Assembly: GCA_027484965.1 (NCBI GenBank)
Contig: JAIXRY010000004.1
Span: 1-40,087, forward strand
DNA: 40,087 nucleotides
Reading direction: 5' to 3'
Source of the DNA: a bacterium
Lineage (GTDB): Bacteria > Patescibacteriota > Minisyncoccia > Phycocordibacterales > UBA9973
Below the pieces are notes generated by a model. The model worked only from the letters and a program-made list of their open reading frames with translations. It was not told the origin of the DNA and searched no databases. The translations under genes were made by a program, and so were the position numbers. This document shows positions 6,004 through 33,325 of this stretch, one piece after another. Numbering within the stretch: the first letter of the stretch is position 1; the number at the start of each line of letters is the position of its first letter.

Positions 6004-6543
6004 ATGAACAAACCTCACAAAACACATTTTATAGGAGTGCTACTTATCACGTTTTTTATTATTATATTGACGGCGGTTTTTTTGATGATGAAAAATAGAA
6101 ATACGTTAGATGAAAATATTCCTGTTGCTGAAAATAAGACAGAAACAACAAGCATTGTTCCAATAGTGGAAGAAAAAGTAGGGTGTGGAATTGTTGTAAA
6201 AAGTCCAACAATTGGTGAAAAGTTTGATGTTATAAAAAAGGTGTCTGTTGTTGTTGATAATTCAAAGAGGGTAGAACTCGGATGTGGGTGGACTGTTTTT
6301 GAAGGGCAAGCCGGAACATTTAAAATAGTTGATTCTCAAGGTAATGAAGTCTCAAGTGGAATATTAAAAGTTCAAGAAGGGATTGAGTGGATGACTTCTC
6401 TCCCTGTAATGTATGAAGCTGAAGCGCCAATCTCAAAAGACGAGAAAGATATTGCAAAGGGAATAGGTAAGTTAATAATCACAGAAGATGACCCAAGTGG
6501 AGAAAAGATTCTTCAGACTATAGAAATCCCTGTGGAGTTTTAA
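6004..6543 (+). CDS. Membrane-anchored protein with Gmad2-like Ig-fold domain
   Basis: N-terminal TM; VKSPTIGEKFDVIKKVSV...WMTSLPVMYEAEAP...GKLIITEDDPSGEKILQTIEIPVEF. Confidence 0.55.
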   Translation: MNKPHKTHFIGVLLITFFIIILTAVFLMMKNRNTLDENIPVAENKTETTSIVPIVEEKVGCGIVVKSPTIGEKFDVIKKVSVVVDNSKRVELGCGWTVFEGQAGTFKIVDSQGNEVSSGILKVQEGIEWMTSLPVMYEAEAPISKDEKDIAKGIGKLIITEDDPSGEKILQTIEIPVEF

Positions 6544-6608
6544 ATTTATAACAGCTGTCAACTAAAAAACCTTTATAAATTAAGGGTTTTTTAGTTACAT
6601 TAAATTTA

Positions 6609-6638
6609 TTGACAAAGTAGTATAATTTATTATATAAT
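6609..6638 (+). promoter_or_regulatory. Consensus sigma70 promoter
   Basis: TTGACA (6609-6614), 18 nt, TATAAT (6633-6638). Confidence 0.75.
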
Positions 6639-6677
6639 ATACGTAATAAATTGTAGAACCATTAAAAATAAATAATA

Positions 6678-7337
6678 ATGAAAAAGTTATCATTAATTAT
6701 CACACTACTTTTGCTAGTGTTTGCTTTTACCAACTGCTCTTTTAAAAGGAATCTGCGAAAATGCGGTAATTCTGATGAATGCTGGAAGTATGTGGAAGAT
6801 ATCCAAATGTTCAAAGAGAACAAGAATCATAAATTCGTGTTTGACTCTACCAAAGCAAAAGTGTTCTTTGTTGCGAAATGGAATACGTTTATTCCATATC
6901 GCGGTTCTTGGGACGGTTATGATCGGGACGGCGGAGTTATTAGTGGATATGAGAAAGGGAAATATGTCTATTTTTTGGAAAAATACAAAGTACAATCAGA
7001 ACAATTTTTCAAAGAAACTGGCAAATCATTTATTGTAATGGAGAAGAGATTCTACAAGACTTCACTTTCAGAAGACCCAAGAAGAACTTGCTTTTGGATT
7101 TCTCTCGTTATGAAACCTTACTCGCAGAATATAGACACGTTCTTGAGACAAGCAACCTGTATTGAAGAAAATCCTTCATTTCAGTCTTTATTTCCAAATT
7201 ATATTAATGATCTGAAGCGAAGAGTACTCGCGTCAGAAGGTGTAACTGATTGGGAAAAGATTATTAACTTCACCGCACAAACTGTTCCTGGCAAACCAGA
7301 AACTTGGAATGCGTGGAGATGGCCTGGTTATAACTAG
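6678..7337 (+). CDS. Putative lipoprotein of unknown function
   Basis: MKKLSLIITLLLLVFAFTNC lipobox-like signal peptide. Confidence 0.65.
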   Translation: MKKLSLIITLLLLVFAFTNCSFKRNLRKCGNSDECWKYVEDIQMFKENKNHKFVFDSTKAKVFFVAKWNTFIPYRGSWDGYDRDGGVISGYEKGKYVYFLEKYKVQSEQFFKETGKSFIVMEKRFYKTSLSEDPRRTCFWISLVMKPYSQNIDTFLRQATCIEENPSFQSLFPNYINDLKRRVLASEGVTDWEKIINFTAQTVPGKPETWNAWRWPGYN

Positions 7338-7465
7338 GTACAAATCCTTGTCGTATGACAAGGATTTTTATTTGGAATTTATATTAAGATTGTTACAGCA
7401 AAAAACTCTTTTCAAAAAGCATTTTTTGCTGTATAGTACTTGTTGTTGATACTCATTATCAATAT

Positions 7466-7537
7466 GCTCTCGTCGTTCAATGGATAGGACGCAACTTTGC
7501 GGAAGTTGCGATGTAGGTTCGATTCCTACCGAGAGCA
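7466..7537 (+). tRNA. tRNA-Arg (anticodon GCG)
   Basis: GCTCTCG TC GTTC AATGGATAG GAC; anticodon stem-loop GCAACT TTGCGGA AGTTGC; T-arm GTAGG TTCGATT CCTAC; CGAGAGC A. Confidence 0.93.
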
Positions 7538-7540
7538 CAA

Positions 7541-7581
7541 TATAAAAAATCACCTAATAATAAATTAGGTGATTTTTTATA
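7541..7581. terminator. Bidirectional terminator after tRNA-Arg(GCG)
   Basis: TATAAAAAATCACCTAAT / ATTAGGTGATTTTTTATA, 18-bp arms. Confidence 0.75.
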
Positions 7582-7590
7582 TCTCTAAAC

Positions 7591-7677
7591 GCTCTCGGTA
7601 GGAATCGAACCTCGGCGCCAATTTTTAAGAAGTAAAACGACTATAAAAATTGTGCGTTTCGACCGAAGGGAGAGGTG
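7591..7677 (-). repeat. Inverted tRNA-Arg 3'-end copy followed by a structured segment
   Basis: gctctcggtaggaatcgaacct is the exact reverse complement of tRNA-Arg positions 7515-7536; adjacent CGC-CAATTTTTA/TAAAAATTG-t-GCG hairpin. Confidence 0.7.
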
Positions 7678-7685
7678 ATTCATGT

Positions 7686-8153
7686 TTATATACCAAAATA
7701 ATCAAAAAGTTGTTCAGGTATACTTTCTACAAGCTCCTCATTTTTTGTTGTATATGTCTTCAACATACTTTCCATATCTTCTTCATGTATGTTTAATACA
7801 GGGAATGAAACGATTCTATTTATACCAACATTACGACTAATAAGAAGAAGTCTCTGATCTCTTCTCGTTGTAAAATTATAAGAAACAACATTTTTCCAAA
7901 TAATGATTTCATTGTTTATAGAAATTCCTTTTTCATTTATTTCAAAATCAGTAATCTCAGGTTCTTTGTGCGCTGTAAATATTATAAGAGATCCTGCTAT
8001 AAGAATAAAAATTCCAAAAAGAAAATTTGAAAAAAAGAAAGAGGCAATAGATCCCGCTATAACAATAATACCCATAGCCCAATACCAATCAATACTTTTT
8101 GGTTTAAATTCGTAGGGGAGAGCGCTCCAAGATAAAGAAGTTTTTTGTTCCAT
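7686..8153 (-). CDS. Two-TM membrane protein, uncharacterised
   Basis: ORF with two adjacent hydrophobic segments and a soluble C-terminal half. Confidence 0.65.
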   Translation of the reverse strand: MEQKTSLSWSALPYEFKPKSIDWYWAMGIIVIAGSIASFFFSNFLFGIFILIAGSLIIFTAHKEPEITDFEINEKGISINNEIIIWKNVVSYNFTTRRDQRLLLISRNVGINRIVSFPVLNIHEEDMESMLKTYTTKNEELVESIPEQLFDYFGI

Positions 8154-8286
8154 ATATACATTGTAGCAATAATTTTAATATTAACAGGTGGAAAAATACT
8201 TTTAAATAGCAAAAAAGAGTTAATTTCACCCTTTTTTGTTTATATAGGAATATTTACTGTCTAGATTTGATTGAATAGGTGAGATT

Positions 8287-8344
8287 CGCCTCCGCAAAAC
8301 AAAAAGTACTATCAAATGATAGTACTTTTTGTTTTGCGGAGGCG
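8287..8344. repeat. 28-bp perfect palindrome overlapping the tRNA-Ser 3' end
   Basis: CGCCTCCGCAAAACAAAAAGTACTATCA-aa-TGATAGTACTTTTTGTTTTGCGGAGGCG. Confidence 0.9.
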
Positions 8345-8423
8345 GGGGGATTCGAACTCCCGGACCCCGTAAAGGGTCTCCTGTTTTCAAGACAGGTGCC
8401 TTCAACCACTCAGCCACACCTCC
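8337..8423 (-). tRNA. tRNA-Ser (anticodon TGA)
   Basis: Minus strand GGAGGTG TGGCTGAGTGG ... CCTGT CTTGAAA ACAGG, long variable arm, GTTCGAATC, CGCCTCC G. Confidence 0.94.
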
Positions 8424-8507
8424 ATGTGATTTACGTTTTGGTTGAACGTTTAGGTACTATATCAAAAATATGACAAGAGAGCAATATTCAAAATACTGTG
8501 ATAGGAT

Positions 8508-8939
8508 ATGAATATGAAGTCTTTAGGAATTGATTATGGAACAAAAAAGGTAGGACTTGCTATGTCTGACCCTGAAGGTCTTATGGCTTTTCCTTTTAAG
8601 ATTATCAAAAATGACCAAACTCTTATTGAGAATATATCTAATATTATTTTAGAAAATAATATTGAAAAAATTTTTATAGGGAAATCTCTAGGTTTATTCG
8701 GAGAAGAGAATAAAGTTCAAAAAAATATTGATTTGTTTATAGAAAAATTAAAGAAGATAACCAGTGTGCCTGTTGAGACTGTTATAGAATCATTTACAAG
8801 TTCTCATGGAAGAATTGGAATTGATAAAAGTTCTCTTAATGATAGAAAAACAAAACAAATAAGTGAGGGCTTAGTAGATGCAAAAGCTGCGGCGCTTATA
8901 TTACAAAGAGGTCTGGATAAAAATACTAATATAAAATAA
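8508..8939 (+). CDS. ruvX: Holliday junction resolvase RuvX/YqgF
   Basis: LGIDYGTKKVGLAMSDPEGLMAFPF and C-terminal VDAKAAALILQRGLD. Confidence 0.9.
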   Translation: MNMKSLGIDYGTKKVGLAMSDPEGLMAFPFKIIKNDQTLIENISNIILENNIEKIFIGKSLGLFGEENKVQKNIDLFIEKLKKITSVPVETVIESFTSSHGRIGIDKSSLNDRKTKQISEGLVDAKAAALILQRGLDKNTNIK

Positions 8940-8954
8940 TTACTTATACACCAT

Positions 8955-9296
8955 ATGATTACAATTGATGATTTTGCAAAATTAGAAATAAAGCTTGGGA
9001 AGATATTGAGTGCTGAACTTGTGGAAGGTTCTGATAAATTGGTTTTATTTAATATTGATCTTGGAGAGGAAACAGGTCCAAGGCAGATTCTTTCTGGTGT
9101 TCGTGCTTATTTCCCTGACGAACAAGTGTTGATAGGTAAGACTGTTCCTGTTATTGCAAATCTAGAACCACGGACAATTCGCGGACATGTTTCAAATGGA
9201 ATGATTCTGTATGGAATACAAAAAGATGAAGGAGGTGAAATACTGACAACCTTAGAACCAAACAAAGAACTAATCCCAGGATCTTTAGTAAGTTAG
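8955..9296 (+). CDS. tRNA-binding OB-fold protein (MetRS beta/CsaA-like)
   Basis: LEIKLGKILSAELVEGSDKLVLFNIDLGEE...RQILSGVRAYF...ANLEPRTIRGHVSNGMIL. Confidence 0.9.
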   Translation: MITIDDFAKLEIKLGKILSAELVEGSDKLVLFNIDLGEETGPRQILSGVRAYFPDEQVLIGKTVPVIANLEPRTIRGHVSNGMILYGIQKDEGGEILTTLEPNKELIPGSLVS

Positions 9297-9307
9297 ATTC
9301 CAAAATT

Positions 9308-9350
9308 GAAACCCTGAGGAAAAGTGTTAGACACTTTTCCTCAGGGTTTC
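9308..9350. terminator. 20-bp palindromic terminator
   Basis: GAAACCCTGAGGAAAAGTGT-tag-ACACTTTTCCTCAGGGTTTC. Confidence 0.75.
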
Positions 9351-9400
9351 TCTATTTTTCTCTTTAGAATAAAAAATATCCTTGCTATACTTAGTATGTA

Positions 9401-11026
9401 ATGCGAAAACTTTTTGCAAAAATTATTACTCCTCCCGCGTACTTAACAATACCTTCTGTCGGTATCGATATTTCCGATCGCTCGGTTAGATTTATAGAAT
9501 TCAAAGACGATGCTTTTGGTAAAAAAAAGTTAGATAGATTTGGTCTAAAAAACATTGAGGAAGGAATTATTTCAAATGGTAAAGTTATTCAAAGAGATAG
9601 CTTGGTTAAGCTTCTAGAAGCACTAAAGATTGAACATAAACTTACTTTTGTTCGTGCTTCTATACCAGAAGAACAAGTTTATTTGTTCTCAGTACAAATT
9701 CCAAAAGTAAAAGAAGATTCTATAAGAGAAACTATTGAGCTCTTGCTTGAAGAATATGTTCCAATTCCAGCAGGGGAAACAGTCTTTGATTATCAAATTA
9801 TTAGTGAATTAGAATCTCACTATAACATTGAAGTCACTGCTGTTCCCTCAAAGATTGTGGAAGACTATGCGCTTATTTTTGAAGAAGCTGGGTTGGTGCT
9901 TGTTGGATTTGAATTAGAAGCACAAGCAATGGCTCGTGCTGTGATAAGAAATGGAGATACTAATACTTACATGATTGTTGATTACGGGAATACTCGTACA
10001 GGACTTTCGTTTGTTGTTGATGGTATTGTAAGATTTGCTTCTTCTGTTGATCTTGGAAGTTCTATGCAAGACAAAGAACTTGCTCGTGCACTTTCAATGG
10101 ATATTAAGACTGTAGAGGAGCTAAAAAAGAAAAATGGATTATTGAAGAGTAATAAAGACGAAGCGTTTTTTCAGGCAATCTTGAGTGAAACAGCTCTTCT
10201 TCGTGACGAGATAAATAAGCACTTTATTTTTTGGCATACACATAAAGATGAGTTTGGTAATATTCGTCCTCCCGTGGATAAAATCCTTCTTTGTGGAGGT
10301 AATGCAAACCTTATAGGGCTTCCAGAGTATCTTTCAGCTTCTCTTCGTATTGCAGTTATTCATGCAGATCCGTGGACTAATATTACAGATAGAACAACCT
10401 ACATACCAGAACTCGAAAGAGGGCCAGCTCTTTCTTATCCTACAGCCATTGGACTTTCTCTTGCTGACGATAATTCTCTGGTAAATTTATTACCACTTTC
10501 TTCTCAAAAAAATATAAAAAAGATACTTTTCTTAAGATTAGGAACCCTTTTTATATCTTCAATAGCAATGGCTTTTGTTGTTGGGAGTATACTTCTAATA
10601 CCGACATATATTATAGGAAAAGAACAGCTTAATAATTTTCAATCAAAAGCAGATCTTCAAGATAAAACATCATTAAATCAAGAAGAAGAAAAAGCTAAAA
10701 AAGATAGCGAACAAATAATTTCAAAAATTAAAACTTTTGATAATCTAAAAGAAAATCATTCTTTTATTGCTGAAATAATAAACCCACTCATTGAAGTATC
10801 AAGAGAAAAAGTATCTATAACCTCTCTTTTGTATGAAGAGATTCAAGGTGCAAATACAACAAATATAACTATTACAGGTAAAGCTCCTTCAAGACAAATT
10901 CTTTCTCAATTTCATCAAGACCTTAATAAGAGTGCTTTTTTTGAGAAAGTTAATTTGCCAATATCTAATTATGTAAAAGGAAAAGATATTGAATATACGA
11001 TTCAGGGATTTATAAAGTATGAATAA
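9401..11026 (+). CDS. pilM: PilM-PilN fusion (type IV pilus inner-membrane platform)
   Basis: N-terminal PilM actin-like fold (VGIDISDRSVRFIEF, YMIVDYGNTRTGLSFV, ILLCGGNANLIGLPEYL); C-terminal VNLLPLSSQK-TM-coiled coil-ferredoxin-like PilN region. Confidence 0.85.
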   Translation: MRKLFAKIITPPAYLTIPSVGIDISDRSVRFIEFKDDAFGKKKLDRFGLKNIEEGIISNGKVIQRDSLVKLLEALKIEHKLTFVRASIPEEQVYLFSVQIPKVKEDSIRETIELLLEEYVPIPAGETVFDYQIISELESHYNIEVTAVPSKIVEDYALIFEEAGLVLVGFELEAQAMARAVIRNGDTNTYMIVDYGNTRTGLSFVVDGIVRFASSVDLGSSMQDKELARALSMDIKTVEELKKKNGLLKSNKDEAFFQAILSETALLRDEINKHFIFWHTHKDEFGNIRPPVDKILLCGGNANLIGLPEYLSASLRIAVIHADPWTNITDRTTYIPELERGPALSYPTAIGLSLADDNSLVNLLPLSSQKNIKKILFLRLGTLFISSIAMAFVVGSILLIPTYIIGKEQLNNFQSKADLQDKTSLNQEEEKAKKDSEQIISKIKTFDNLKENHSFIAEIINPLIEVSREKVSITSLLYEEIQGANTTNITITGKAPSRQILSQFHQDLNKSAFFEKVNLPISNYVKGKDIEYTIQGFIKYE

Positions 11027-11600
11027 TAAAATTAATAAAAAAACAATAATTACACTAATTGTCTCATGTGTTTTCTTGATTTTTTCTGCGGGAATATTTT
11101 TCTTTGGATTGTTTAAAATAAAGATAATATCTAATAAAATTTTGGATATAGAAGAAAATATTTCTCTACTTAAAGATAGTGCAGGGAGAAGTGCTGCACT
11201 ATCTAAAGCAACATCATCTTTAAAAAAGGTTCAAGATACTTTGGACGTATATTTTGTACAAGAAAATAATATACCTGATTTGTTGGAGCAAATAGAAGCT
11301 TATGGAAAAACTATAAATGTCCCCGTTGAATTTAGTGGTATTACAACTAGTGCTAACGCAGAAGATTTTATAACATTAACAATCAAAGCAACTGGTGATT
11401 TTAAATCAATTACAATGTTTACTAATTACATAGACTCTTTGCCGTATAATTCTAAAATCACTAGAGTCTTTTTAGTATCAAACATTCTTGATACTTCTGC
11501 TCAGCAAATTGTCGATCCAAAGAAAAAATATACAGTACCTTTACCTGTATGGAAAGCAGAATATTCTTTAAAAATTCTTAGCTTCACTCCTAATCAATAG
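11019..11600 (+). CDS. pilO: PilO-like type IV pilus protein
   Basis: N-terminal TM, coiled coil, IPDLLEQIEAYGKTINV...LTIKATGDFKSITMFTNYIDSLPY; overlaps the pilM-pilN 3' end. Confidence 0.72.
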   Translation: MNNKINKKTIITLIVSCVFLIFSAGIFFFGLFKIKIISNKILDIEENISLLKDSAGRSAALSKATSSLKKVQDTLDVYFVQENNIPDLLEQIEAYGKTINVPVEFSGITTSANAEDFITLTIKATGDFKSITMFTNYIDSLPYNSKITRVFLVSNILDTSAQQIVDPKKKYTVPLPVWKAEYSLKILSFTPNQ

Positions 11601-20214: not shown

Positions 20215-20832
20215 ATGTCATTCATAAAAAATCTTTCATGGCGCTATGCAACAAAAATATTTGATTCAAACAAAAAAGTTGAAAGTGATCATGTAGAAAA
20301 AATATTAGAAGCGGTAAGACTTGCTCCAACATCTTTTGGGCTACAACCATTCCATGTAACTGTTGTGGAGAATCAAGAACTAAAAGACAAACTTCAAGGA
20401 TTTTCTTGGAACCAACCTCAAATAGGAACATCTTCACAAGTACTTGTCTTTTCTTATAGAACAGATGTTTTAGCTAGGATTAATACTTACTTTGAGATGA
20501 TTTCAGGTGGTAATGAAGAGGTGAGAAAGGGTATGGAAGGATATGAGACAATGATGAAAAATTTTGCAGAAAGTATGTCAGAAGAAAAAATTGCTTCATG
20601 GGCTGCAAGACAAGCATATATCGCTCTTGGATTTGCTTTAGCTTCTTGTGCAGAACTTGAAATAGACTCTTGTCCTATGGAAGGATTTGATGCTGCTGCC
20701 TACAAAGAAGCGCTAGCGCTTCCAGAAAACATAACTCCTGTAGTTCTTCTTCCTATCGGATATAGATCAGAAAGTGATACAGTTCGTGCAAAAGTTCGTT
20801 TTCCAGAAACAGACTTATTTTCAAATAAATAA
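20215..20832 (+). CDS. Nitroreductase family protein
   Basis: WRYATKIFDSNKKV, AVRLAPTSFGLQPFHVTVV, LGFALASCAELEIDSCPMEGFD. Confidence 0.92.
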   Translation: MSFIKNLSWRYATKIFDSNKKVESDHVEKILEAVRLAPTSFGLQPFHVTVVENQELKDKLQGFSWNQPQIGTSSQVLVFSYRTDVLARINTYFEMISGGNEEVRKGMEGYETMMKNFAESMSEEKIASWAARQAYIALGFALASCAELEIDSCPMEGFDAAAYKEALALPENITPVVLLPIGYRSESDTVRAKVRFPETDLFSNK

Positions 20833-21602: not shown

Positions 21603-22448
21603 ATGAGTATCACACTAAAAAGAGTAATTAAAATAAGTAGACCTAGATTTTGGCTCTATGAACTAGGAACATTTTTTATCGGAATTGTTGCTGGTGGATT
21701 TTTTGGTGCACCGATAATGTCTATCACTATTTGGGGTATTTATTTTTTGATTTCAGCAAACATTTTGATCTACGGTATAAATGATATTTATGATTATGAT
21801 ACTGACAAATTAAATCCAAAAAAACAAAATTATGAAGATCTGTTGGATCCAACAGATCACAAGAAGATATACTTTTGGATTTTAGTGACAAATATTCCTT
21901 TTATTTTTTTTATTTTTAATCTTTCTACGTCTACAATAATTTCACTTTTTTTCTTTGTGTTTTTTGCTACATTCTATTCAGCAAAACCTATCCGTGCAAA
22001 AGCTCGTCCTTTTTTTGATTCATTTTTTTCTGCAGGACATTATGTAGCTACAGGTGTCTTTGGATATTTTTTAACGAACCCCGAACACTCTTTTCCTTTA
22101 TGGGGAATTGTAGCTGGAATGTCTTGGGCTATTTCTATGCATGCTTATTCCGCTGTTCCTGATATTGAGTCTGATGCAAACGGAGGTTTGGCGACAATTG
22201 CAACTTATTTAGGTAAAAATAAAACCATACTACTCTGTTCTCTGCTCTATACAATTTCATCAATCATAGGATCCTTATTGGTAGGGTGGTGGATTTCAAT
22301 TTTACTTATTCCTTATTTGTTTATAATGTATAAATCATATTTTGCTGATGAAATTTTTCTTTTTAAACTTTATAAATATTTTCCAATGTTGAATGCTTTT
22401 TCTGGAATGGTGCTCTTTTGGAGTCTTTTGTTGAAAATAATTTTATAA
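21603..22448 (+). CDS. UbiA-family prenyltransferase, candidate lycopene elongase-type
   Basis: SRPRFWLYELGTFFIG, NDIYDYDTDKLNP, YSAVPDIESDANGGLATIATYLG; adjacent to the crt genes. Confidence 0.82.
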   Translation: MSITLKRVIKISRPRFWLYELGTFFIGIVAGGFFGAPIMSITIWGIYFLISANILIYGINDIYDYDTDKLNPKKQNYEDLLDPTDHKKIYFWILVTNIPFIFFIFNLSTSTIISLFFFVFFATFYSAKPIRAKARPFFDSFFSAGHYVATGVFGYFLTNPEHSFPLWGIVAGMSWAISMHAYSAVPDIESDANGGLATIATYLGKNKTILLCSLLYTISSIIGSLLVGWWISILLIPYLFIMYKSYFADEIFLFKLYKYFPMLNAFSGMVLFWSLLLKIIL

Positions 22449-22486
22449 AATAAAAACCTCACATTGTGAGGTTTTTATTTCTTTAT

Positions 22487-24007
22487 TTAAACTTCTTTTA
22501 ATGGTTCCGGATCAGATATTTTTTCAATTCTCTTATATATCAACTCAGCCGATATTATACATATAGGAACTCCAATACCAGGGTTAGTTCCAGCTCCAAC
22601 AAAGAATAAATTTTCAACTTTTCTAGATATATTGTTCGGTCTAAATATTGCTGTTTGCGGAAGAGTGTGAGCAAGACCTAAAGCTGTTCCTTTGAATGCA
22701 TTGTAGTCTTTTATAAAATTATCAACACTGTAAATTTCTTTTGTTATAATTCTTTCCTTGAGATTTGGTATGTCTAATTCTTTTTCCATTAATGAAAGTA
22801 TTTTGTCAGCATATAGCCCTTTCTCTTCTTCTGTATGAGAGAGACCTGCCGCAATTGGAACTAGTACAAAAATATTCTCAGTATTATTTGGAGCTATACT
22901 ATCGTCAGATTTTGATGGGGCACATACATATAAAGCTGGATATCCTGGCCATGTTGGATGTTTAAAAATCTTATCAAAATTTTCTTTCCATGCTTTAGGG
23001 AAGAATAGGTTATGGTGTGATAGTGTTGGAATTTTTCCATCTATCCCTAAATACATAATAAATGCACTTGGAGCAAGAGTTCTTTTGTCCCAATATTTTT
23101 GACTGTGTTCTCTGTATTTATCTTCTTCAATCAGTACTTGTTCTGTATGGTGATAGTCTGCATTTGAAATAACCATATCAGCATCAATTATTGCTCCATT
23201 TTCTAATGTAACACCTGTAGCTTTTCCGTTATCAATATTTATTTTCTTAACTGGAGAATTAACTTTTATTTCTGTACCATGTTTTTCTGCTATATTTACA
23301 AAAGCTTTTGTTACTTCATAAAGTCCTCCTTTTGGGTACCAAACACCAAGACCAAAGTCCACATAATTCATAAGTGTATAGATACCTGGAGTATCGTAAG
23401 GTGATGTTCCAAGTAGTACTGTCTGGTACTGCATAACCTTCTGTAGAAGATCATTCTTAAAGAGTCTGTTTATAATTGTACTTTGTTTTGAAAAGAGAGG
23501 TAATTTTCTCCCGAGAGTCATAACTCTTTTATTAAAGAAATCAAAAATAGAGTCGTAGTTTTTATACATGAATTCTTGTTTTGCAACTTCATATTGAAAT
23601 TTTGTTTGTGATAAGAATTTTTCAAGCACATCACCACTACCTTTTTCTAGTGACTCAAAAGTTTCTTTATTTTTTTCAATATTTGCAAAAAAGTCAAAAG
23701 ATTTTCCTTCTTCTTGAAAAACTCTATAAGAAGGGGATAGTAGTTGTAGTTCTAGATGCTTGTTAATGTCCTCTCCTAGCACCTTAAAGAAATCTTCAAA
23801 AACATCTGGCATCATATACCAACTTGGTCCTTTGTCAAAGATAAACTTTCCTTTTTCTGTATCTTTTACTATTAAAGAAGCTCTGCCTCCAGGCATGTCA
23901 TTTTTTTCTAAAATAGTAACTTTGTATCCTTTTTTTGAAAGTAAACAAGCAGAAGCAAGACCTCCAATTCCTGACCCTATAATAATTATGTGTTTCTGTT
24001 TATTCAT
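22487..24007 (-). CDS. crtI: Phytoene desaturase family carotenoid oxidoreductase
   Basis: IIIIGSGIGGLASACLLSKKGYKVTILEKNDMPGGRA, FDKGPSWYMMPD, C-terminal NLFFVGAGTNPGIGVPICIISAELI. Confidence 0.95.
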   Translation of the reverse strand: MNKQKHIIIIGSGIGGLASACLLSKKGYKVTILEKNDMPGGRASLIVKDTEKGKFIFDKGPSWYMMPDVFEDFFKVLGEDINKHLELQLLSPSYRVFQEEGKSFDFFANIEKNKETFESLEKGSGDVLEKFLSQTKFQYEVAKQEFMYKNYDSIFDFFNKRVMTLGRKLPLFSKQSTIINRLFKNDLLQKVMQYQTVLLGTSPYDTPGIYTLMNYVDFGLGVWYPKGGLYEVTKAFVNIAEKHGTEIKVNSPVKKINIDNGKATGVTLENGAIIDADMVISNADYHHTEQVLIEEDKYREHSQKYWDKRTLAPSAFIMYLGIDGKIPTLSHHNLFFPKAWKENFDKIFKHPTWPGYPALYVCAPSKSDDSIAPNNTENIFVLVPIAAGLSHTEEEKGLYADKILSLMEKELDIPNLKERIITKEIYSVDNFIKDYNAFKGTALGLAHTLPQTAIFRPNNISRKVENLFFVGAGTNPGIGVPICIISAELIYKRIEKISDPEPLKEV

Positions 24008-24851
24008 ATTTGTTTAAAATTGTTTTTATAAAAACAATAAATTTCTCTTTTTTGTTTAAACTTGTTCTTTTGCTAATATTGTAACCACTTTCTTTTATTT
24101 TCTTTAATAATCTTGAATATCTATTATACGATAAAAGAACAGCAAATCTTGTATACCTAGGCAAAAGTTTTATACCTTCTCTTCCTATAACGCCAAGTTC
24201 TCTAGTTCTTTTTTCTTGTATGTCCATGTACTTTATCCAAGCTATTTTTTTTTCTTGCGATGATAGTTGTTTTATAAAATCTGACGGATTTAAACCACAA
24301 TCATGTAATTCATTTTGAGGTAAATATATACGCTCTCTTTCTTCGTAGTCACTTCTAGCATCTCTAATAAAGTTTACCAATTGAAACATTTCTGCCATTG
24401 CTTTTGCGTGTGGCTCCCAAACACTTTTTGCTTTTGTTATATAACCCATAGCATACCCTATAATAACAGCCGAACCATACATATAATCTTCAACTTCCTT
24501 ATAATCACTATAAATATGCTTTTCAGTATCTTTCTCCATTGATTTGAAAAATGATTCAAAAAATTCTTCTTCCAAACCAATTTCTTTTTGCAAAATTCTC
24601 GTACTTTGCTGGACAATATTTTTTTCAGGATTGTTTTTCCAATCATTCCACCATGTATGTAAAACAATTTTTGCTTCTTCGTCTTTAAAATCAGTATCTA
24701 CAATCTCATCCACAGTCCTTACAAATGCATAAAAAATCCAAGTTTGATAACGTTCTTTCTTGGGGAAGAATAGGGTGGCTATATAAAAAGTACTACTATA
24801 CCTTTTGATTATTTTTTTGGCGTTATTTATTTGTTCTTTTGTAAACATCAT
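24000..24851 (-). CDS. crtB: Phytoene/squalene synthase
   Basis: YSSTFYIATLFFPKKERY, VRTVDEIVDTD, FQLVNFIRDARSDYEERERIYLPQNEL. Confidence 0.94.
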   Translation of the reverse strand: MMFTKEQINNAKKIIKRYSSTFYIATLFFPKKERYQTWIFYAFVRTVDEIVDTDFKDEEAKIVLHTWWNDWKNNPEKNIVQQSTRILQKEIGLEEEFFESFFKSMEKDTEKHIYSDYKEVEDYMYGSAVIIGYAMGYITKAKSVWEPHAKAMAEMFQLVNFIRDARSDYEERERIYLPQNELHDCGLNPSDFIKQLSSQEKKIAWIKYMDIQEKRTRELGVIGREGIKLLPRYTRFAVLLSYNRYSRLLKKIKESGYNISKRTSLNKKEKFIVFIKTILNKYE

Positions 24852-25858
24852 GATGTTCTCTTTTCTATTAATGAAACAAGATTAAAAAGGGCTTCCTTTG
24901 TATGATCTTTTATGTCTTCTTTCTCAATACTTTTCTTTGCTATTTCTAATTTTTCAAAAACCTCACTTCTCAATTCTTGTATTAAATTACTGTTTCTAAT
25001 TTTTTCTTTAAATTCTTTTGTAATAAGATTTCTGTTTTTTGAACCAAATATTTTATTAAACTCTTCTAGTAATTTTTGATCGTCTTGATTATTAATTTTT
25101 GCATTAATAAGTGTTGGTTGTCCTTCTATAATATCAGTAAAACCATGTTTTCCTAAGTCATCATCTTCGCTCATTATATCAATCAAGTCGTCTGTTATTT
25201 GGAAACATATTCCAAGGTTGTCACTGTAAGAATAAATCCAATCATTAGGTTTATTTCCAGAAAGTGTAATTCCAAGTTCTAATGGGCGAGTACAAGTGTA
25301 TCTTGCTGTCTTTAAAAGCATACATTCAAAAATATCTTTTTCTAAGACACCTTTTTTATCTCTATTATCCAGATCTATCATCTGACCGACAATAACTTCA
25401 TCTATTAGTTTTTTCCAAACGAGTAAGCTCTCTTTTGATTTTTGTGTTGAAAAAAAAGAATCGTAAGCCCAATTAAAAAGAAGATCTGCAACCAATATTG
25501 CCTGATGCTTGTTTATGGGTTCTTTATATAGTTGTTTTGAGTAGGTATGAATAGCTTCTGTTCCGTGACGTAATTCTTGTTCATCCATAATATCGTCTTC
25601 AACAAGAGCCATAATGTGGATTAATTCTATAGCCACGAGTACATCTTGTATATCTTTCCAAGATTCTCTATTTTCCTGATATCCTATAGCGATTATGAAA
25701 GGACGAATTCTTTTGCCTTTTTTCGCTAATATGAGTATATGATCAAATATTTTTTGTAATCTTTCATTAGACGTAATTTTTTTTGTTTCTTCGATATAAT
25801 TACTTAACTTATCTAAAAAATAAATATCAAATTCTTTTTTAAAATCTACAATGTTCAT
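24848..25858 (-). CDS. crtE: Polyprenyl diphosphate (GGPP-type) synthase
   Basis: GKRIRPFIIAIGYQ, first Asp-rich motif VEDDIMDE, second FQITDDLIDI. Confidence 0.92.
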   Translation of the reverse strand: MNIVDFKKEFDIYFLDKLSNYIEETKKITSNERLQKIFDHILILAKKGKRIRPFIIAIGYQENRESWKDIQDVLVAIELIHIMALVEDDIMDEQELRHGTEAIHTYSKQLYKEPINKHQAILVADLLFNWAYDSFFSTQKSKESLLVWKKLIDEVIVGQMIDLDNRDKKGVLEKDIFECMLLKTARYTCTRPLELGITLSGNKPNDWIYSYSDNLGICFQITDDLIDIMSEDDDLGKHGFTDIIEGQPTLINAKINNQDDQKLLEEFNKIFGSKNRNLITKEFKEKIRNSNLIQELRSEVFEKLEIAKKSIEKEDIKDHTKEALFNLVSLIEKRTS

Positions 25859-25861
25859 ACT

Positions 25862-26293
25862 TTATATTCTCGATATGTAATCTAAAACTTCTTCCGCGTG
25901 TTTTTCAGGGTTAACTTTTAAATACTCTTTAATTATAATTCCTTCTGGATTTATAATATATGAAATCCTTTTTGTTCCTAGAATTCCATCAGCTTTATAT
26001 AAAGCACATACCAAACCTTCTTTATCTGACAAAAGAGTAAAAGGTAGTTCGTATTTAGAAATAAATTTTTTGTGTGATTCTGAGCTATCTTTGCTTATGC
26101 CAATAACTATAAGGTTGTGATTTTTTAATGCTTCGTGATCTTCTTTTATACTGCAAGCTTCTTTGGTACAGCCAGGAGTATCGTCTTTTGGATAAAAATA
26201 CAATAACACAAAAGAACCTCTATATTGTTCTAATGTATGAATTTCTTTATTTTCATCTGGTAGTGTAAAATTTGGTGCTTGTTGATTTTCCAT
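25862..26293 (-). CDS. bcp: Peroxiredoxin, Bcp/PrxQ type
   Basis: APNFTLPDENKEIHTLEQYRGSFVLLYFYPKDDTPGCTKEACSIKE; start MENQQAP. Confidence 0.94.
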   Translation of the reverse strand: MENQQAPNFTLPDENKEIHTLEQYRGSFVLLYFYPKDDTPGCTKEACSIKEDHEALKNHNLIVIGISKDSSESHKKFISKYELPFTLLSDKEGLVCALYKADGILGTKRISYIINPEGIIIKEYLKVNPEKHAEEVLDYISRI

Positions 26294-26329
26294 TTTGCAA
26301 TTATACGTTTTTTTTATAGAATACTCTAT

Positions 26330-26904: not shown

Positions 26905-26958
26905 AAAAGACGTATAGAAAAATATCACCACCAGGTGATATTTTTCTATACGTCTTTT
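26905..26958. terminator. 25-bp perfect palindromic terminator
   Basis: AAAAGACGTATAGAAAAATATCACC-acca-GGTGATATTTTTCTATACGTCTTTT. Confidence 0.8.
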
Positions 26959-26992
26959 CTATAAAAATTCTATATATGATATAATGAATTAT

Positions 26993-28534
26993 ATGAATTT
27001 GAATATAATCCAAAAAATTAAAGATGGTTTTAAGGTTTTTGTTAGTAAAAAAAGATACTGGATAGGTGCAATTATTGTAATATTGATTGCTGTACCTTTG
27101 ATAATGAAAGATAACGCTGCTAATATTGTGACTTCAAAAGTTGAAAATAAAACATTAATTCAAACTGTTCTTGCTACAGGTCAAGTTACTAGTATTACAG
27201 ATCTTTCACTTTCTTTTGATTCTTCTGGTGTTATTAAAAACATCCCAGTTGTTGTTGGTCAAAAAGTTAAAAAAGGACAAATTCTAGCAAGTCTTGAACA
27301 AGGTAATGAATTAGCTGTCCTTACTCAGGCTAGAGGTCAGCTTCTTGCTGCTCGTGCAAAATACCAAAAGATTCTTGAGGGTGCAACAAATGAAGAAGTT
27401 GCGATTGCAAAAACTGCACTTACAAATGCGGAGACTGATTTAGAAAAAACAAAAAATGCTCAAGCGACTTTGGTAGAGAATGCAAGACGCACAATGATCA
27501 ATGCTGGACTTGAAATGTATCCAGATAATACAAGTAATACTCTAACCACTCCAACTCTTTCAGGTACATATACCGGTGAAGTGGGAACTTATATTATAAC
27601 CCCTTTTTCAAGTGGTTCAGGGGGGTACTTCTCTTTTAACGGTATTGAGACTGGCACCGGTATTATAAGTACTGCGACTTTTAATCCTCTTGGAACAAAA
27701 GGTTTGTTTATAAAATTTCCATCAAACTTTAATTCAGGATTATCTACTTCTTGGACTCTTGATATTCCAAATAAAAAATCAGCAAGTTATATTGCAGCTG
27801 TTAATACATATAATTCTGCATTAGAAACACAAAAAAGTCAGATATCAAGTGCAGAATCACAGGTTGCAACAAGACAGGCAGAATTTAATCTAAAAGTTGC
27901 AAAAGCTCGCGATGCTGACATATCTCTTTCACAAGCAGATGTTTTATCTGCTGAAGGTAATTTACAAAACGCACAAGCTAATTTTGAAAAAACTGTAATA
28001 AGATCTCCAGGAGATGGAACTATTACTAAGGTTGTAAACAAAGTAGGGGAGCTTTCTCAGGCACAAAAAGAATCAATAGTGCTTCAAGATATTGATAATC
28101 TATATATCAAGGCAAACATTAATGAATCAAATATTACAACTGTATCTTTAGGTCAAAAAGTATCAATTACTTTCGATGCTTTTCCTGGTAACTACACTGG
28201 AGAAGTTGTTCATATTGATCCTGCAGCAAAGATTGAAGATGGAATTGTTAATTATGAAATAAAAATTTCTATTAATGAAAAAGATATGTTTATAAGACCT
28301 GGAATGAATGCTGATATAAAAATAGACGCTAATGAAAAACCAAATACAATAGTTGCTCCAAAAGCTTCTATAAAAAAAGATGAAAAAGGTTCTTATGTGG
28401 AGGTTGTCATAAATCCAAAAAATAAAAAATCTGAAAGAAGAAATGTTACAACAGGTGTTACTGGGGACGGTGCTCTTGTAGAAATTATTTCTGGTCTATC
28501 TGTCGGAGAAGAAATAATTGTTTCTAGAATTTAA
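26993..28534 (+). CDS. HlyD/MacA-type efflux periplasmic adaptor subunit
   Basis: GQVTSITDLSLSFDSSGVIKNIPVVVGQKVKKGQILASLE lipoyl half-motif, coiled coil, VIRSPGDGTITKVVNKVGEL. Confidence 0.9.
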   Translation: MNLNIIQKIKDGFKVFVSKKRYWIGAIIVILIAVPLIMKDNAANIVTSKVENKTLIQTVLATGQVTSITDLSLSFDSSGVIKNIPVVVGQKVKKGQILASLEQGNELAVLTQARGQLLAARAKYQKILEGATNEEVAIAKTALTNAETDLEKTKNAQATLVENARRTMINAGLEMYPDNTSNTLTTPTLSGTYTGEVGTYIITPFSSGSGGYFSFNGIETGTGIISTATFNPLGTKGLFIKFPSNFNSGLSTSWTLDIPNKKSASYIAAVNTYNSALETQKSQISSAESQVATRQAEFNLKVAKARDADISLSQADVLSAEGNLQNAQANFEKTVIRSPGDGTITKVVNKVGELSQAQKESIVLQDIDNLYIKANINESNITTVSLGQKVSITFDAFPGNYTGEVVHIDPAAKIEDGIVNYEIKISINEKDMFIRPGMNADIKIDANEKPNTIVAPKASIKKDEKGSYVEVVINPKNKKSERRNVTTGVTGDGALVEIISGLSVGEEIIVSRI

Positions 28535-29811
28535 TGATTAATAATCTAAAAAAAATAGAAAGCTCTTTTAAGCAAAACGCTAAAGTCGGCTGGTTTTTGG
28601 CTAAGCGTGATATTAAGCGTGCTAGTGTTTGGACAACAGGACTGATCGTTCTTGTTATGACACTTACATTTTTAAATTTAATCGTTGTGTCTGGAATATT
28701 GGTAGGCCTTATTCAAGGTTCTGAAGATGCTCAAAAAAAATACGAGATAGGGGATATTGTAATATCTCCATTGTTAAGTCGTAGTGCAATTGACCAAACT
28801 CCTCAAATAGTTGAAATTGTTAAAAATATTCCAGGGTATAAAAATCATACAGTTAGATATTCTGGATCAGCTAAAATAGAGTCAAATTATCGCGACACTG
28901 TAAAACCGGGCGACAAAAGGGATGGGGCTGGAGGATCTCTTCTTGGAATCAATCCAATCGAAGAAGAAAAATTTTCTGGTATTTCAAAATTTGTAACACG
29001 AGGTTCTTATTTGGATCCACAAGATGGAGACAGTGTTCTTATTGGTAAAAATCTTTTGTATGAGTTTACACCCATAGAAGCTCCAGGTTTTCAAACTCTT
29101 AAAGATGTTTCTATTGGTTCTCGTGTAAAAATTACAGTAGGTAACACTTCTCGTGAATATTTTGTTAAGGGCTTTATTCAAAGTAAAGTTGATTTTGATA
29201 GTTCAATAATAATGATTGAGTCTGAAGTACGTAAATTGACAGGTAGAACAGATTTAAATGCTGGTACTATAGCAATACAATTACTACCAGGTACAGATCC
29301 TGTTTTTGTAAAAAATTTCTTATTAGATTCTGGTGTTGGTGATTTAGCTCGTGTGCAAACAGCAGAAGAGGCTTTTCCTAAATTCTTAAAAGATATAAAA
29401 AACACCTTTGGTATTTTAGGATCTATGATTTCTGCAATAGGACTTGTAGTTGCTTCAATTACTATTTTTATTGTTATTTTCGTTAACGCTATTACAAGAC
29501 GAAGGTTTATTGGAATTTTAAAGGGTATTGGTATAAATAAAAGAGCGATTCTTTATTCTTATATATATCAAGCTTGTATATATGCATTTTTTGGAATTAT
29601 TATTGGAATGATTTTGATATTCTTTTTAATAAAACCTTACTTTGCTGCAAACCCAATTAATTTTCCTTTTTCTGATGGAATATTGGTTGCAACATTATCT
29701 GGAACACTAATTCGTGCCGGGATACTTCTTGTTACAACTATTATTGCAGGGTTTATACCTGCTAGGATGGTTATCAAGCAAAATACACTTAGTGCAATTC
29801 TTGGTCGTTAG
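28534..29811 (+). CDS. ABC transporter permease, FtsX/MacB family
   Basis: N-terminal TM, large extracytoplasmic domain, C-terminal three-TM FtsX core (ITRRRFIGILKGIGINKRAILYSYIYQACIYAF). Confidence 0.9.
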   Translation: MINNLKKIESSFKQNAKVGWFLAKRDIKRASVWTTGLIVLVMTLTFLNLIVVSGILVGLIQGSEDAQKKYEIGDIVISPLLSRSAIDQTPQIVEIVKNIPGYKNHTVRYSGSAKIESNYRDTVKPGDKRDGAGGSLLGINPIEEEKFSGISKFVTRGSYLDPQDGDSVLIGKNLLYEFTPIEAPGFQTLKDVSIGSRVKITVGNTSREYFVKGFIQSKVDFDSSIIMIESEVRKLTGRTDLNAGTIAIQLLPGTDPVFVKNFLLDSGVGDLARVQTAEEAFPKFLKDIKNTFGILGSMISAIGLVVASITIFIVIFVNAITRRRFIGILKGIGINKRAILYSYIYQACIYAFFGIIIGMILIFFLIKPYFAANPINFPFSDGILVATLSGTLIRAGILLVTTIIAGFIPARMVIKQNTLSAILGR

Positions 29812-29830
29812 TTATATAAATTTATAAAAC

Positions 29831-30508
29831 ATGCTTACAATTAAAAATCTTACAAAAAAATTTAAAAGTGGAGATCAAGAAACTATTGCGGTAAATGATC
29901 TCTCCTTTGATATTATAGAAGGGCAATTTGTTACTATTACAGGTAAGTCAGGTTCTGGAAAATCTACTTTAATGTACCAGATAGGGCTTTTAGATATGCC
30001 TACAAGTGGACAAGTTATAATGGATGGAAAAGATCTTATAAATCTTGATGAAGAGGGTAGAACAATGATACGTCTCAATGATTTTGGTTATATATTCCAA
30101 GACTATGCAATCCTCCCTTCTTTGACAGCTCTTGAGAATACATTGTTACCACTTCTTATGCAAGGATATGATATTAAAGAAGCAGAAGAAAAAGCAAAAA
30201 TTGCTTTAACAAAAATTGGTCTAGAAAACAAAATGAACAATCTCCCAAGTGAATTATCTGGAGGACAACAACAGCGTGTGTCTATTGCTCGTGCTATTGC
30301 TCATAGCCCAAAGATTATTTTTGCTGACGAACCAACAGCAAACCTTGATTCTGAAACTTCAGCCCAAGTAATGAAAGCTTTTATAGAACTTAACAAAGAA
30401 GGACAAACAATTATAATGGTGACTCATGAAGAAGAATATGCGCGTATGGCACATCGCACTATCCATCTTGCTGATGGTAAAATAGTCAGCGATACTCTTA
30501 ATAGGTAA
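29831..30508 (+). CDS. ABC transporter ATP-binding protein, MacB/LolD type
   Basis: Walker A GKSGSGKST, signature LSGGQQQRVSIARAIAHSP, Walker B IIFADEPTANLD. Confidence 0.96.
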   Translation: MLTIKNLTKKFKSGDQETIAVNDLSFDIIEGQFVTITGKSGSGKSTLMYQIGLLDMPTSGQVIMDGKDLINLDEEGRTMIRLNDFGYIFQDYAILPSLTALENTLLPLLMQGYDIKEAEEKAKIALTKIGLENKMNNLPSELSGGQQQRVSIARAIAHSPKIIFADEPTANLDSETSAQVMKAFIELNKEGQTIIMVTHEEEYARMAHRTIHLADGKIVSDTLNR

Positions 30509-31927: not shown

Positions 31928-33325
31928 ATGAAAAAAATAATAATTTTAATTGCAATTATCGGAATGATTTTTGCAACAAGTGCAGTAAACGCAAAATCAA
32001 GTAGCGATATAAATGTAGCTGATACTACACCAAGAGTTACATTCTTTAGATCTTTCCCAGGAATATCGTTCTCTGGATTGACTTACGTTGAAATGAAGAA
32101 TAATGACACCCTCAGAGGATGTCAAAATTCTTTTGTAACTATGCACATTGTTAACTTTACTCCTTGTATAACTCACATTTCGTGGGTAAAATTAGGTAGT
32201 AATATTGAACATCAAGCTACTTGGTATGAACACAATCCAAGTCACGGTTTCTTATTCAGTGCAGACCTAGGAAATGTATCAAATGGGGTTTATGTGGTGA
32301 AAACTACATCAACTTTACTTGGTTCAGTTAACTTCGACACTCTTGTAGTGTCATTAGGAAACTCAAATCCGATTAAACCACGCATTGTTGATTTAGCAGG
32401 AATGGGTGGATTGCATTGTGGGAGTACCAATTTTGAATTAACTTTGGATTCACTTCAAAATTTTTCGAACCATTGGTGGTATGGAGCTATGAATAAAGTG
32501 GACACCTTAAAGTTAGACAAATACACAGATGAAAAACTATGTGTAAGAGCTGTCGACAAAAATGGTTGTATGGTTTTTAGTGACACTATGATCGTAAAGA
32601 ATTACGAAGCGACTACTCCTACTATTCAGTTCGGTGATCAAAAACTTTTTACTAACTTAACAGGAACATTTAATTGGTATATTGATAGCAATATCGTTGC
32701 TACTAATAGTAACAATTATTTTTACCCTAAAGTTACAGGGAATTATCAAGTACAGTTTGTTGACTTTAGAGGGTGTAAATCTTCTCTAAGCACAAATTCG
32801 TGTGTCGTAGTTCCTAAAGTAATTTCTTCAGACACTGTTGTATTGAACGCAGGCAGTAATAGTGTTCAAATTCCACTGTTTAAGTCATACAATGACTATA
32901 AAGCAGTTGTATGTTGGAAAGTTACAAAGAATGGGGTTCTGATTCAGGACAAATGTATAAGAACTAACGAAATTTCTTATATTGATGTTACTGAAGGAGT
33001 TTACTTTATAAACTCAACTTCATCATTTGGAATTGAATCGACTGATACAATAGTTGTTCTGAAAAGAAAAACTACTGGATTAAATGATATCTCAAAGTTG
33101 ATTGAAGTTTTTACTTATCCTAATCCATTTACTGATAGCTTTACTATAAGCAATCAAAATGGTTCTAAAATTGTTATTTTTGACCTAACGGGAAAATCTA
33201 TATTTGAAACAATTCTTCAAAGTAATGAAGAGATTATCAAACCGGAGATTCCTTCTGGTCTATATCTTTTAAAGATTTACAACAATGACCAATACATTGG
33301 TTATAAAAAAATCTTAAAAGATTAA
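31928..33325 (+). CDS. Secreted protein with a C-terminal T9SS type A-like sorting domain
   Basis: Signal peptide MKKIIILIAIIGMIFATSAVNA; C-terminus YPNPFTDSFTISNQNGSKIVIFDLTGKSIFE...IPSGLYLLKIYNNDQYIGYKKILKD. Confidence 0.85.
   Translation: MKKIIILIAIIGMIFATSAVNAKSSSDINVADTTPRVTFFRSFPGISFSGLTYVEMKNNDTLRGCQNSFVTMHIVNFTPCITHISWVKLGSNIEHQATWYEHNPSHGFLFSADLGNVSNGVYVVKTTSTLLGSVNFDTLVVSLGNSNPIKPRIVDLAGMGGLHCGSTNFELTLDSLQNFSNHWWYGAMNKVDTLKLDKYTDEKLCVRAVDKNGCMVFSDTMIVKNYEATTPTIQFGDQKLFTNLTGTFNWYIDSNIVATNSNNYFYPKVTGNYQVQFVDFRGCKSSLSTNSCVVVPKVISSDTVVLNAGSNSVQIPLFKSYNDYKAVVCWKVTKNGVLIQDKCIRTNEISYIDVTEGVYFINSTSSFGIESTDTIVVLKRKTTGLNDISKLIEVFTYPNPFTDSFTISNQNGSKIVIFDLTGKSIFETILQSNEEIIKPEIPSGLYLLKIYNNDQYIGYKKILKD

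Follow-up and report, generated by a model that had tools for sequence, protein, structure and literature searches.

The 40,087-nucleotide stretch of contig JAIXRY010000004.1 of the Patescibacterial genome assembly GCA_027484965.1 (the window, whose positions are used as coordinates throughout) carries a real and intact carotenoid biosynthesis locus at 21603-26293, where a gene for a UbiA-family prenyltransferase converges on a row of four minus-strand genes, bcp, crtE, crtB and crtI (Table 1). The open reading frame (ORF) coordinates agree with a preliminary description of this DNA in gene order and spacing: bcp and crtE are separated by a gap of 3 nucleotides (25859-25861), crtE and crtB overlap by 4 nucleotides, and crtB and crtI overlap by 8. 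The motifs listed in that description are also all present, namely NDxxDxxxD in UbiA, DDIMD and DDLID in CrtE, and DEIVD and DARSD in CrtB. The catalytic columns of the four carotenoid enzymes are essentially kept, with the window departing at no more than two near-invariant columns in each protein.

Table 1. Features of the carotenoid locus and its flanks in the window
Feature	Position	Strand	Basis
ubiA/lyeJ-like, predicted lycopene elongase-type UbiA prenyltransferase, 281 aa	21603-22448	+	NF009516, Asp-rich motifs, tree
Hairpin terminator common to convergent ubiA and crtI	22448-22480	no strand	15-pair stem, -16.9 kcal/mol, z -7.3
crtI, predicted phytoene desaturase nearest the CrtID model, 506 aa	22487-24007	-	TIGR02734, NF058655
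crtB, phytoene synthase-type, 283 aa, fast-evolving, both Asp-rich motifs kept	24000-24851	-	PF00494
crtE, trans-prenyl (GGPP-type) diphosphate synthase, 336 aa	24848-25858	-	PF00348, DDIMD, DDLID
bcp/prxQ, thiol peroxidase, 143 aa, first gene of putative operon	25862-26293	-	PF00578
Divergent intergenic region of 36 bp (bcp left, FKBP gene right), expected operon promoter site	26294-26329	no strand	sequence
HlyD, FtsX permease and ATPase genes of an ABC exporter adjoining the locus	26984-30508	+	Pfam

The hairpin between ubiA and crtI has T/A-rich ends and was recognized by a terminator scan and by its fold energy; given its position, ubiA and the crt operon seem to be transcribed as separate units. 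Putative co-transcription of bcp with the crt genes is judged from their spacing. A promoter scan gave 31 matches where 30.2 were expected, and promoter-like matches in the intergenic region between bcp and the FKBP gene were no more frequent than chance.

The UbiA protein contains the domain of the UbiA superfamily (PF01040, 5e-20, 72.2 bits, cut-off 34.2) and passes the prenyltransferase model NF009516 (209.7 bits, cut-off 205, 5e-62). This is the top-scoring model for haloarchaeal proteins in the position of LyeJ, and it gives 426.3 bits for the UbiA protein of a haloarchaeal crtI-prenyltransferase-cruF operon. Two other carotenoid-type models gave 145.5 bits (NF009608, cut-off 217, not passed) and 119.1 bits; proteins in the elongase position of Actinobacterial loci fit NF009608 with 439-469 bits. 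The motifs N60D61xxD64xxxD68 and D187xxxD191 are invariant among 13 relatives, and a PDB sequence search with UbiA returned no match at E 0.1. When the GTDB species collection was scanned with a UbiA alignment, 80 loci were selected on UbiA alone. At 73 of them crtI or crtB was found within the fetched stretch, and these come from Patescibacteria, Acidobacteriota, Flavobacteriaceae, Actinomycetota/Chloroflexota, Haloarchaea, Asgard archaea and Woesearchaeota. In the UbiA tree the window protein falls among Paceibacteria-type sequences (16 rows, SH-aLRT 81) inside the group of UbiA proteins from carotenoid loci, away from Escherichia coli UbiA and CyoE, and thus not with the quinone or heme enzymes. 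The likeliest function is that of a lycopene elongase-type prenyltransferase of the LyeJ/CrtEb kind, predicted to add C5 units to lycopene. The models, the neighbouring genes and the tree together bear out, as C50, the earlier proposal of a C45 or C50 product made by prenyl extension of lycopene.

CrtI passes the crtI family model TIGR02734 (477 bits, cut-off 238.1, 7e-143), and both this match and the tree described below place it with the phytoene desaturase family, as had been expected. Its score against the CrtID model NF058655 is higher still (601.5 bits), the reverse of the Actinobacterial CrtI tested (481 for CrtID, 551 for the crtI family); CrtI of a relative in the same order (L045) passes NF058655 with 649.3 bits. 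The window CrtI is the sole PF01593 protein in the genome, and a separate CrtD is absent. The hydratase CruF (PF04240) had no match genome-wide with a model that gives Patescibacterial CruF proteins 120-151 bits. A genome of the same family (G737, locus L160) has CruF beside UbiA, and CruF may have been lost from the window lineage or never present in it. In another Patescibacterial operon (L052 of G725, 6070-11493) there is a pair of CrtI-family enzymes, of which the one beside crtB scores as CrtI and the one beside ubiA and cruF as CrtID; to judge by these scores, this pair is a natural split of the CrtI and CrtID functions. In Haloarcula japonica, a bifunctional CrtI/CrtD desaturates phytoene and also performs the 3,4-desaturation, and LyeJ acts as elongase and 1,2-hydratase (PMC11946383). 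The combination of a LyeJ/CrtEb-type UbiA and a CrtID-like CrtI, without CruF or a second desaturase, makes an acyclic C50 carotenoid of the bisanhydrobacterioruberin type the likeliest product, rather than bacterioruberin or a cyclic carotene. Thus, of the bacterioruberin-type pathway suggested in the preliminary description, the C50 elongation is retained and the hydration is not, CruF being absent.

CrtB matches SQS_PSY (PF00494, 1.5e-44, 153 bits) and CrtE matches PF00348 (1e-42), each as the sole protein of its family in the genome, so that CrtE is the sole trans-prenyl synthase. Identity to the nearest of the compared relatives is 38% for CrtB, 54% for UbiA and 60% for CrtI; within the locus, it is CrtB and CrtE that evolve fast. 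The possibility that the divergent CrtB and CrtE are products of pseudogenes was rejected, the catalytic columns being intact. Pairs of crtE and crtB with neither crtI nor ubiA in the fetched stretch were also noted at three loci of family f30 (L047, L048 and L056).

The genome (796 kb in 17 contigs, 97.6% complete) was searched as a whole for families of isoprenoid precursor synthesis, and no match was found to IspH, to GHMP kinase or to undecaprenyl diphosphate synthase (UppS). The absence of GHMP kinase removes together IspE, mevalonate kinase, phosphomevalonate kinase and diphosphomevalonate decarboxylase. Controls for the IspH and GHMP kinase searches were positive in 10 and 14, respectively, of 14 genomes. 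Across nine genomes of the same family, its own included, GHMP kinase was found in none and UppS in one, and an incomplete bin was therefore rejected as a sufficient reason for the missing genes of isopentenyl diphosphate (IPP) synthesis. Among 16 genomes across the phylum that bear carotenoid genes (that of the window included), mevalonate pathway kinases exceeded curated cut-offs in G422 alone, where the matches are a true phosphomevalonate kinase and a diphosphomevalonate decarboxylase; the GHMP matches in G346, G216 and G526 were rejected as isoprenoid kinases, as they pass no isoprenoid-kinase cut-off. The earlier remark that supply of IPP and dimethylallyl diphosphate (DMAPP) is not encoded in the window is correct. 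In the absence of IspH, GHMP kinase and UppS, and with CrtE as the sole trans-prenyl synthase, IPP and DMAPP appear to be scavenged, and these or longer prenyl diphosphates are most likely taken from a partner cell. Peribacteria encode a near-complete mevalonate pathway (PMC4736985), and Rickettsia parkeri takes isoprenoid precursors from its host (PMC6854040). A broader proposition might as readily prove right as wrong: that in host-dependent Patescibacteria without their own IPP/DMAPP synthesis or UppS the carotenoid pathway would be the main or sole isoprenoid outlet, with C50 carotenoid made from the partner's building blocks, and that the uncoupling of carotenogenesis from precursor synthesis would be the rule in the phylum.

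Taken together, these features are best explained, with good though not full confidence, by an intact, vertically inherited Patescibacterial locus for an acyclic C50 carotenoid of the bisanhydrobacterioruberin type, made from precursors supplied by a partner cell. In the pathway as predicted from sequence, CrtE would make geranylgeranyl diphosphate (GGPP) from IPP and DMAPP or a short allylic diphosphate; CrtB would join two GGPP into phytoene; CrtI would convert phytoene to lycopene, introducing the 3,4-double bonds as well should it work like CrtID, to which its score points; and UbiA would extend lycopene at both ends, each time by one C5 unit from DMAPP, to yield the acyclic C50 product, with no CruF to hydrate it to bacterioruberin. 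The pigment would most likely stiffen and protect the membrane, and the IPP/DMAPP or longer prenyl diphosphate would most likely be obtained from the partner cell.

Several observations weigh against this interpretation. The margin of UbiA over the NF009516 cut-off is slim, the model itself is named just "prenyltransferase", and the outgroup branches of the UbiA tree are very long, making its root approximate. CrtI is below the NF058655 cut-off of 640 bits and outside that family, which makes 3,4-desaturation uncertain. CrtB falls under the cut-offs of the equivalog models (84.5 of 550 bits for NF045686, 79.1 of 500 for NF045921 and 117 of 278.6 for HpnD) and has a long branch in its tree, so that its assignment to phytoene rather than squalene rests on the operon context. 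No marker of the methylerythritol phosphate or mevalonate pathway was detected in the genome-wide family searches, which did not include IPP isomerase. As the preliminary description had noted, no cyclase, lyase or retinal dioxygenase is visible within the locus, and cyclases were not searched for genome-wide; likewise no rhodopsin, lycopene cyclase or Blh gene lies beside the crt locus, the neighbourhood to which that search was confined.

The main alternative to a product like bisanhydrobacterioruberin is a C50 carotenoid of the flavuxanthin or nonaflavuxanthin type, formed if UbiA has CrtEb-like chemistry and CrtI proceeds to lycopene only, without 3,4-desaturation. This alternative gains from the shortfall of CrtI against the CrtID cut-off, from the match of UbiA to the actinobacterial-type NF009608, and from the CrtI tree, in which the window protein is on the side of Actinobacterial CrtI with a split support of just 45. 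It is nevertheless considered possible but on the unlikely side, because the relative CrtID and crtI family scores of the window protein are opposite to those of Actinobacterial CrtI and because UbiA passes the haloarchaeal-type model and fails the Actinobacterial one.

The place of bcp at the head of the putative operon raises another alternative, that PrxQ and carotenoid synthesis belong to a single operon dedicated to peroxide defence, with a chiefly antioxidant purpose. Bcp matches AhpC-TSA (PF00578, 4e-36, 124 bits, cut-off 26) and is under the cut-offs of the PrxQ/Bcp equivalogs NF006960 (114.9 of 140) and NF053650 (136.6 of 260). Besides the 3-nucleotide gap on the same strand, this alternative draws on a distant lineage (L060), the sole other such locus among the relatives, in which PrxQ/Bcp is also the first gene of the crt operon, and on a locus of the same family (L164) headed by a thioredoxin reductase/AhpF-like gene with a 13-nucleotide gap. 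A redox theme at the head of crt operons is thus possible from two or three cases. Most relatives have neither gene: the head is a LolD-type ABC ATPase (L049 and L072, with L070 similar), an ABC permease (L065), another gene or a divergent gene, and in reduced genomes compact operons often exchange their head genes. A peroxide-defence operon is accordingly regarded as doubtful, and the antioxidant or membrane-protection module with the peroxiredoxin that had been suggested keeps its close spacing and the two parallels, but as a functional link it is weak. ABC exporter genes (FtsX permease, LolD-type ATPase, ABC-2 permease) adjoin or sit within the crt operons of several Patescibacteria, including, besides the window, L045 (11099-13098), L049 (10777-11469) and L065 (12332-14045); such proximity is possibly due to chance, since exporters are perhaps common in these genomes.

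It is very unlikely that the product is C40 lycopene alone, with UbiA serving quinone, heme or lipid prenylation and adjoining crtI by chance. This would suit the arrangement of ubiA, which is convergent to the crt genes, looks to be transcribed apart from them and has a terminator of its own, and in three relatives from the same class (G042, G013 and G147) the fetched stretch contains crtE-crtB but neither UbiA nor CrtI; but the quinone (UbiA/MenA) and heme models give UbiA no more than 42.5 bits, far less than NF009516, and UbiA-selected relatives across many phyla lie overwhelmingly in carotenoid loci.

The distribution of the locus is sparse: SQS_PSY was found in 11 of 384 genomes of the class and in 8 of 147 genomes of the family, over 7 of its 24 genera. 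In the CrtI tree the window protein is grouped with same-family sequences (support 93) inside a 10-row Paceibacteria clade (support 100), and CrtB is likewise grouped with same-family CrtB (support 82). In a genome of the same order that is assembled as one contig of 981,549 bases (G346), the same FtsX permease and ATPase genes flank the crt locus on the crtE side, and on the ubiA side it shares with the window RuvX, a tRNA-binding protein and PilM, which in the window are about 12 kb off. The same-family trees and these neighbours suit an old locus that a few lineages have retained, not a chimeric contig, and vertical inheritance within Patescibacteria of the Paceibacteria type is, as part of the overall explanation, probable. 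A binning or assembly artefact, in which a foreign carotenoid operon was joined to a Patescibacterial contig, could be argued from the missing IPP pathway, the rarity of SQS_PSY in the family and a Bacteroidota-type sorting domain elsewhere on the contig, but chimerism, which the preliminary description had named as a possible refutation, was rejected on the shared neighbours and the trees, and with a GC content of 0.30 compared with 0.33 for the window an artefact is extremely improbable.

The convergent ubiA-crtI junction was found at 22 of the 31 Patescibacterial loci with both genes, at all 9 Acidobacteriota loci and at 9 of the 11 Flavobacteriaceae loci, and this spread and the UbiA tree suggest movement of the block across phyla. 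The loci of Acidobacteriota and Flavobacteriaceae (Pyrinomonadaceae, Gillisia and Gelidibacter among others) have the same junction, a CrtID-like CrtI and a related UbiA; unlike the window, the Acidobacteriota loci all have CruF and none has crtE in the stretch, and the nine convergent Flavobacteriaceae loci have neither crtB nor crtE in the stretch. These nine (L073, L081, L083, L084, L088, L092, L095, L096 and L097), with elongase-type ubiA and CrtID-like crtI, come from cultured Gillisia, Gelidibacter, Psychroserpens, Subsaximicrobium and Jejuia and from metagenome bins, and their carriers are candidate C50 producers. Cultured species with the convergent pair include Gillisia limnaea, Gelidibacter algens and Psychroserpens burtonensis.

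Among known systems, the haloarchaeal bacterioruberin cluster (crtI/D-lyeJ-cruF, with crtB nearby) resembles the window in its CrtID-type desaturase next to a LyeJ-type UbiA and its linked crtB, but the window has crtE in the operon, ubiA convergent rather than co-directional, no CruF genome-wide and no mevalonate pathway. The Actinobacterial C50 clusters (crtE-crtB-crtI-crtEb with cyclase genes, of the Corynebacterium, Arthrobacter and Microbacterium type; L134-L146) share with the window the crtE-crtB-crtI order and a UbiA elongase, but their elongase fits NF009608 and that of the window does not, and no cyclase lies beside the window locus. A study of Patescibacteria in Lake Baikal in 2023 described LyeJ, CrtD and CruF genes, including in a novel Paceibacteria family, and proposed a membrane role at low temperature (PMC9948471). 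In the parts of that study concerned with these genes, lyeJ and crtD homologues, to which the window has counterparts, are assigned to Paceibacteria-class and Saccharibacteria genomes and occur with cruF, on different reads and in no cluster, and precursor supply is not taken up there (PMC9948471). The window has a compact cluster without CruF, in a genome without detectable IPP synthesis. Rickettsia parkeri is likewise a reduced bacterium relying on the isoprenoid precursors of another cell, but there the host is eukaryotic, the dependency is experimentally shown and concerns the cell-wall lipid carrier (PMC6854040), whereas in the window the dependency is predicted and the visible sink is carotenoid. 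Beyond earlier work, the present comparison shows that a compact cluster occurs in several Patescibacterial lineages, that the window lineage probably lacks hydration, and that IPP synthesis is absent from nearly all carriers tested.

If the explanation preferred here, an acyclic C50 carotenoid built from a partner's precursors, is true, bacteria of very small size, probably attached to a host, invest scavenged C5 units in a C50 carotenoid whose length suffices to cross a membrane. Such an outlay would indicate that an otherwise stripped-down cell is under genuine selection for a stiffer membrane or for photoprotection or oxidative protection. What Patescibacteria take from their hosts would then become testable through a pigment that the partner cannot make. 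The ubiA-crtI pair, often convergent, is present in Patescibacteria, Acidobacteriota and Flavobacteriaceae, and its presence in the last of these means that cultured members could reveal the product of this group of enzymes.

Other features of the window were noted. A nitroreductase-family gene (20215-20832, + strand) is near the crt locus, and a related nitroreductase gene (37% identical) is directly upstream of crtE at L091 (12301-12942). A near-perfect inverted repeat of 20 pairs (26908-26955) between the FKBP and HlyD genes was picked up by the terminator scan as a terminator-like hairpin on both strands. The sorting domain mentioned above belongs to a secreted-type protein of 465 aa (31928-33325, + strand), which ends in a Por_Secre_tail domain (type IX secretion sorting) on a contig that is otherwise Patescibacterial. 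Por_Secre_tail is normally a feature of Bacteroidota, and the protein was possibly acquired from a Bacteroidota partner. A complete acyl-adenylating protein of the GH3 family, with N, middle and C domains (4190-5701, + strand), is unexpected in so reduced a genome.

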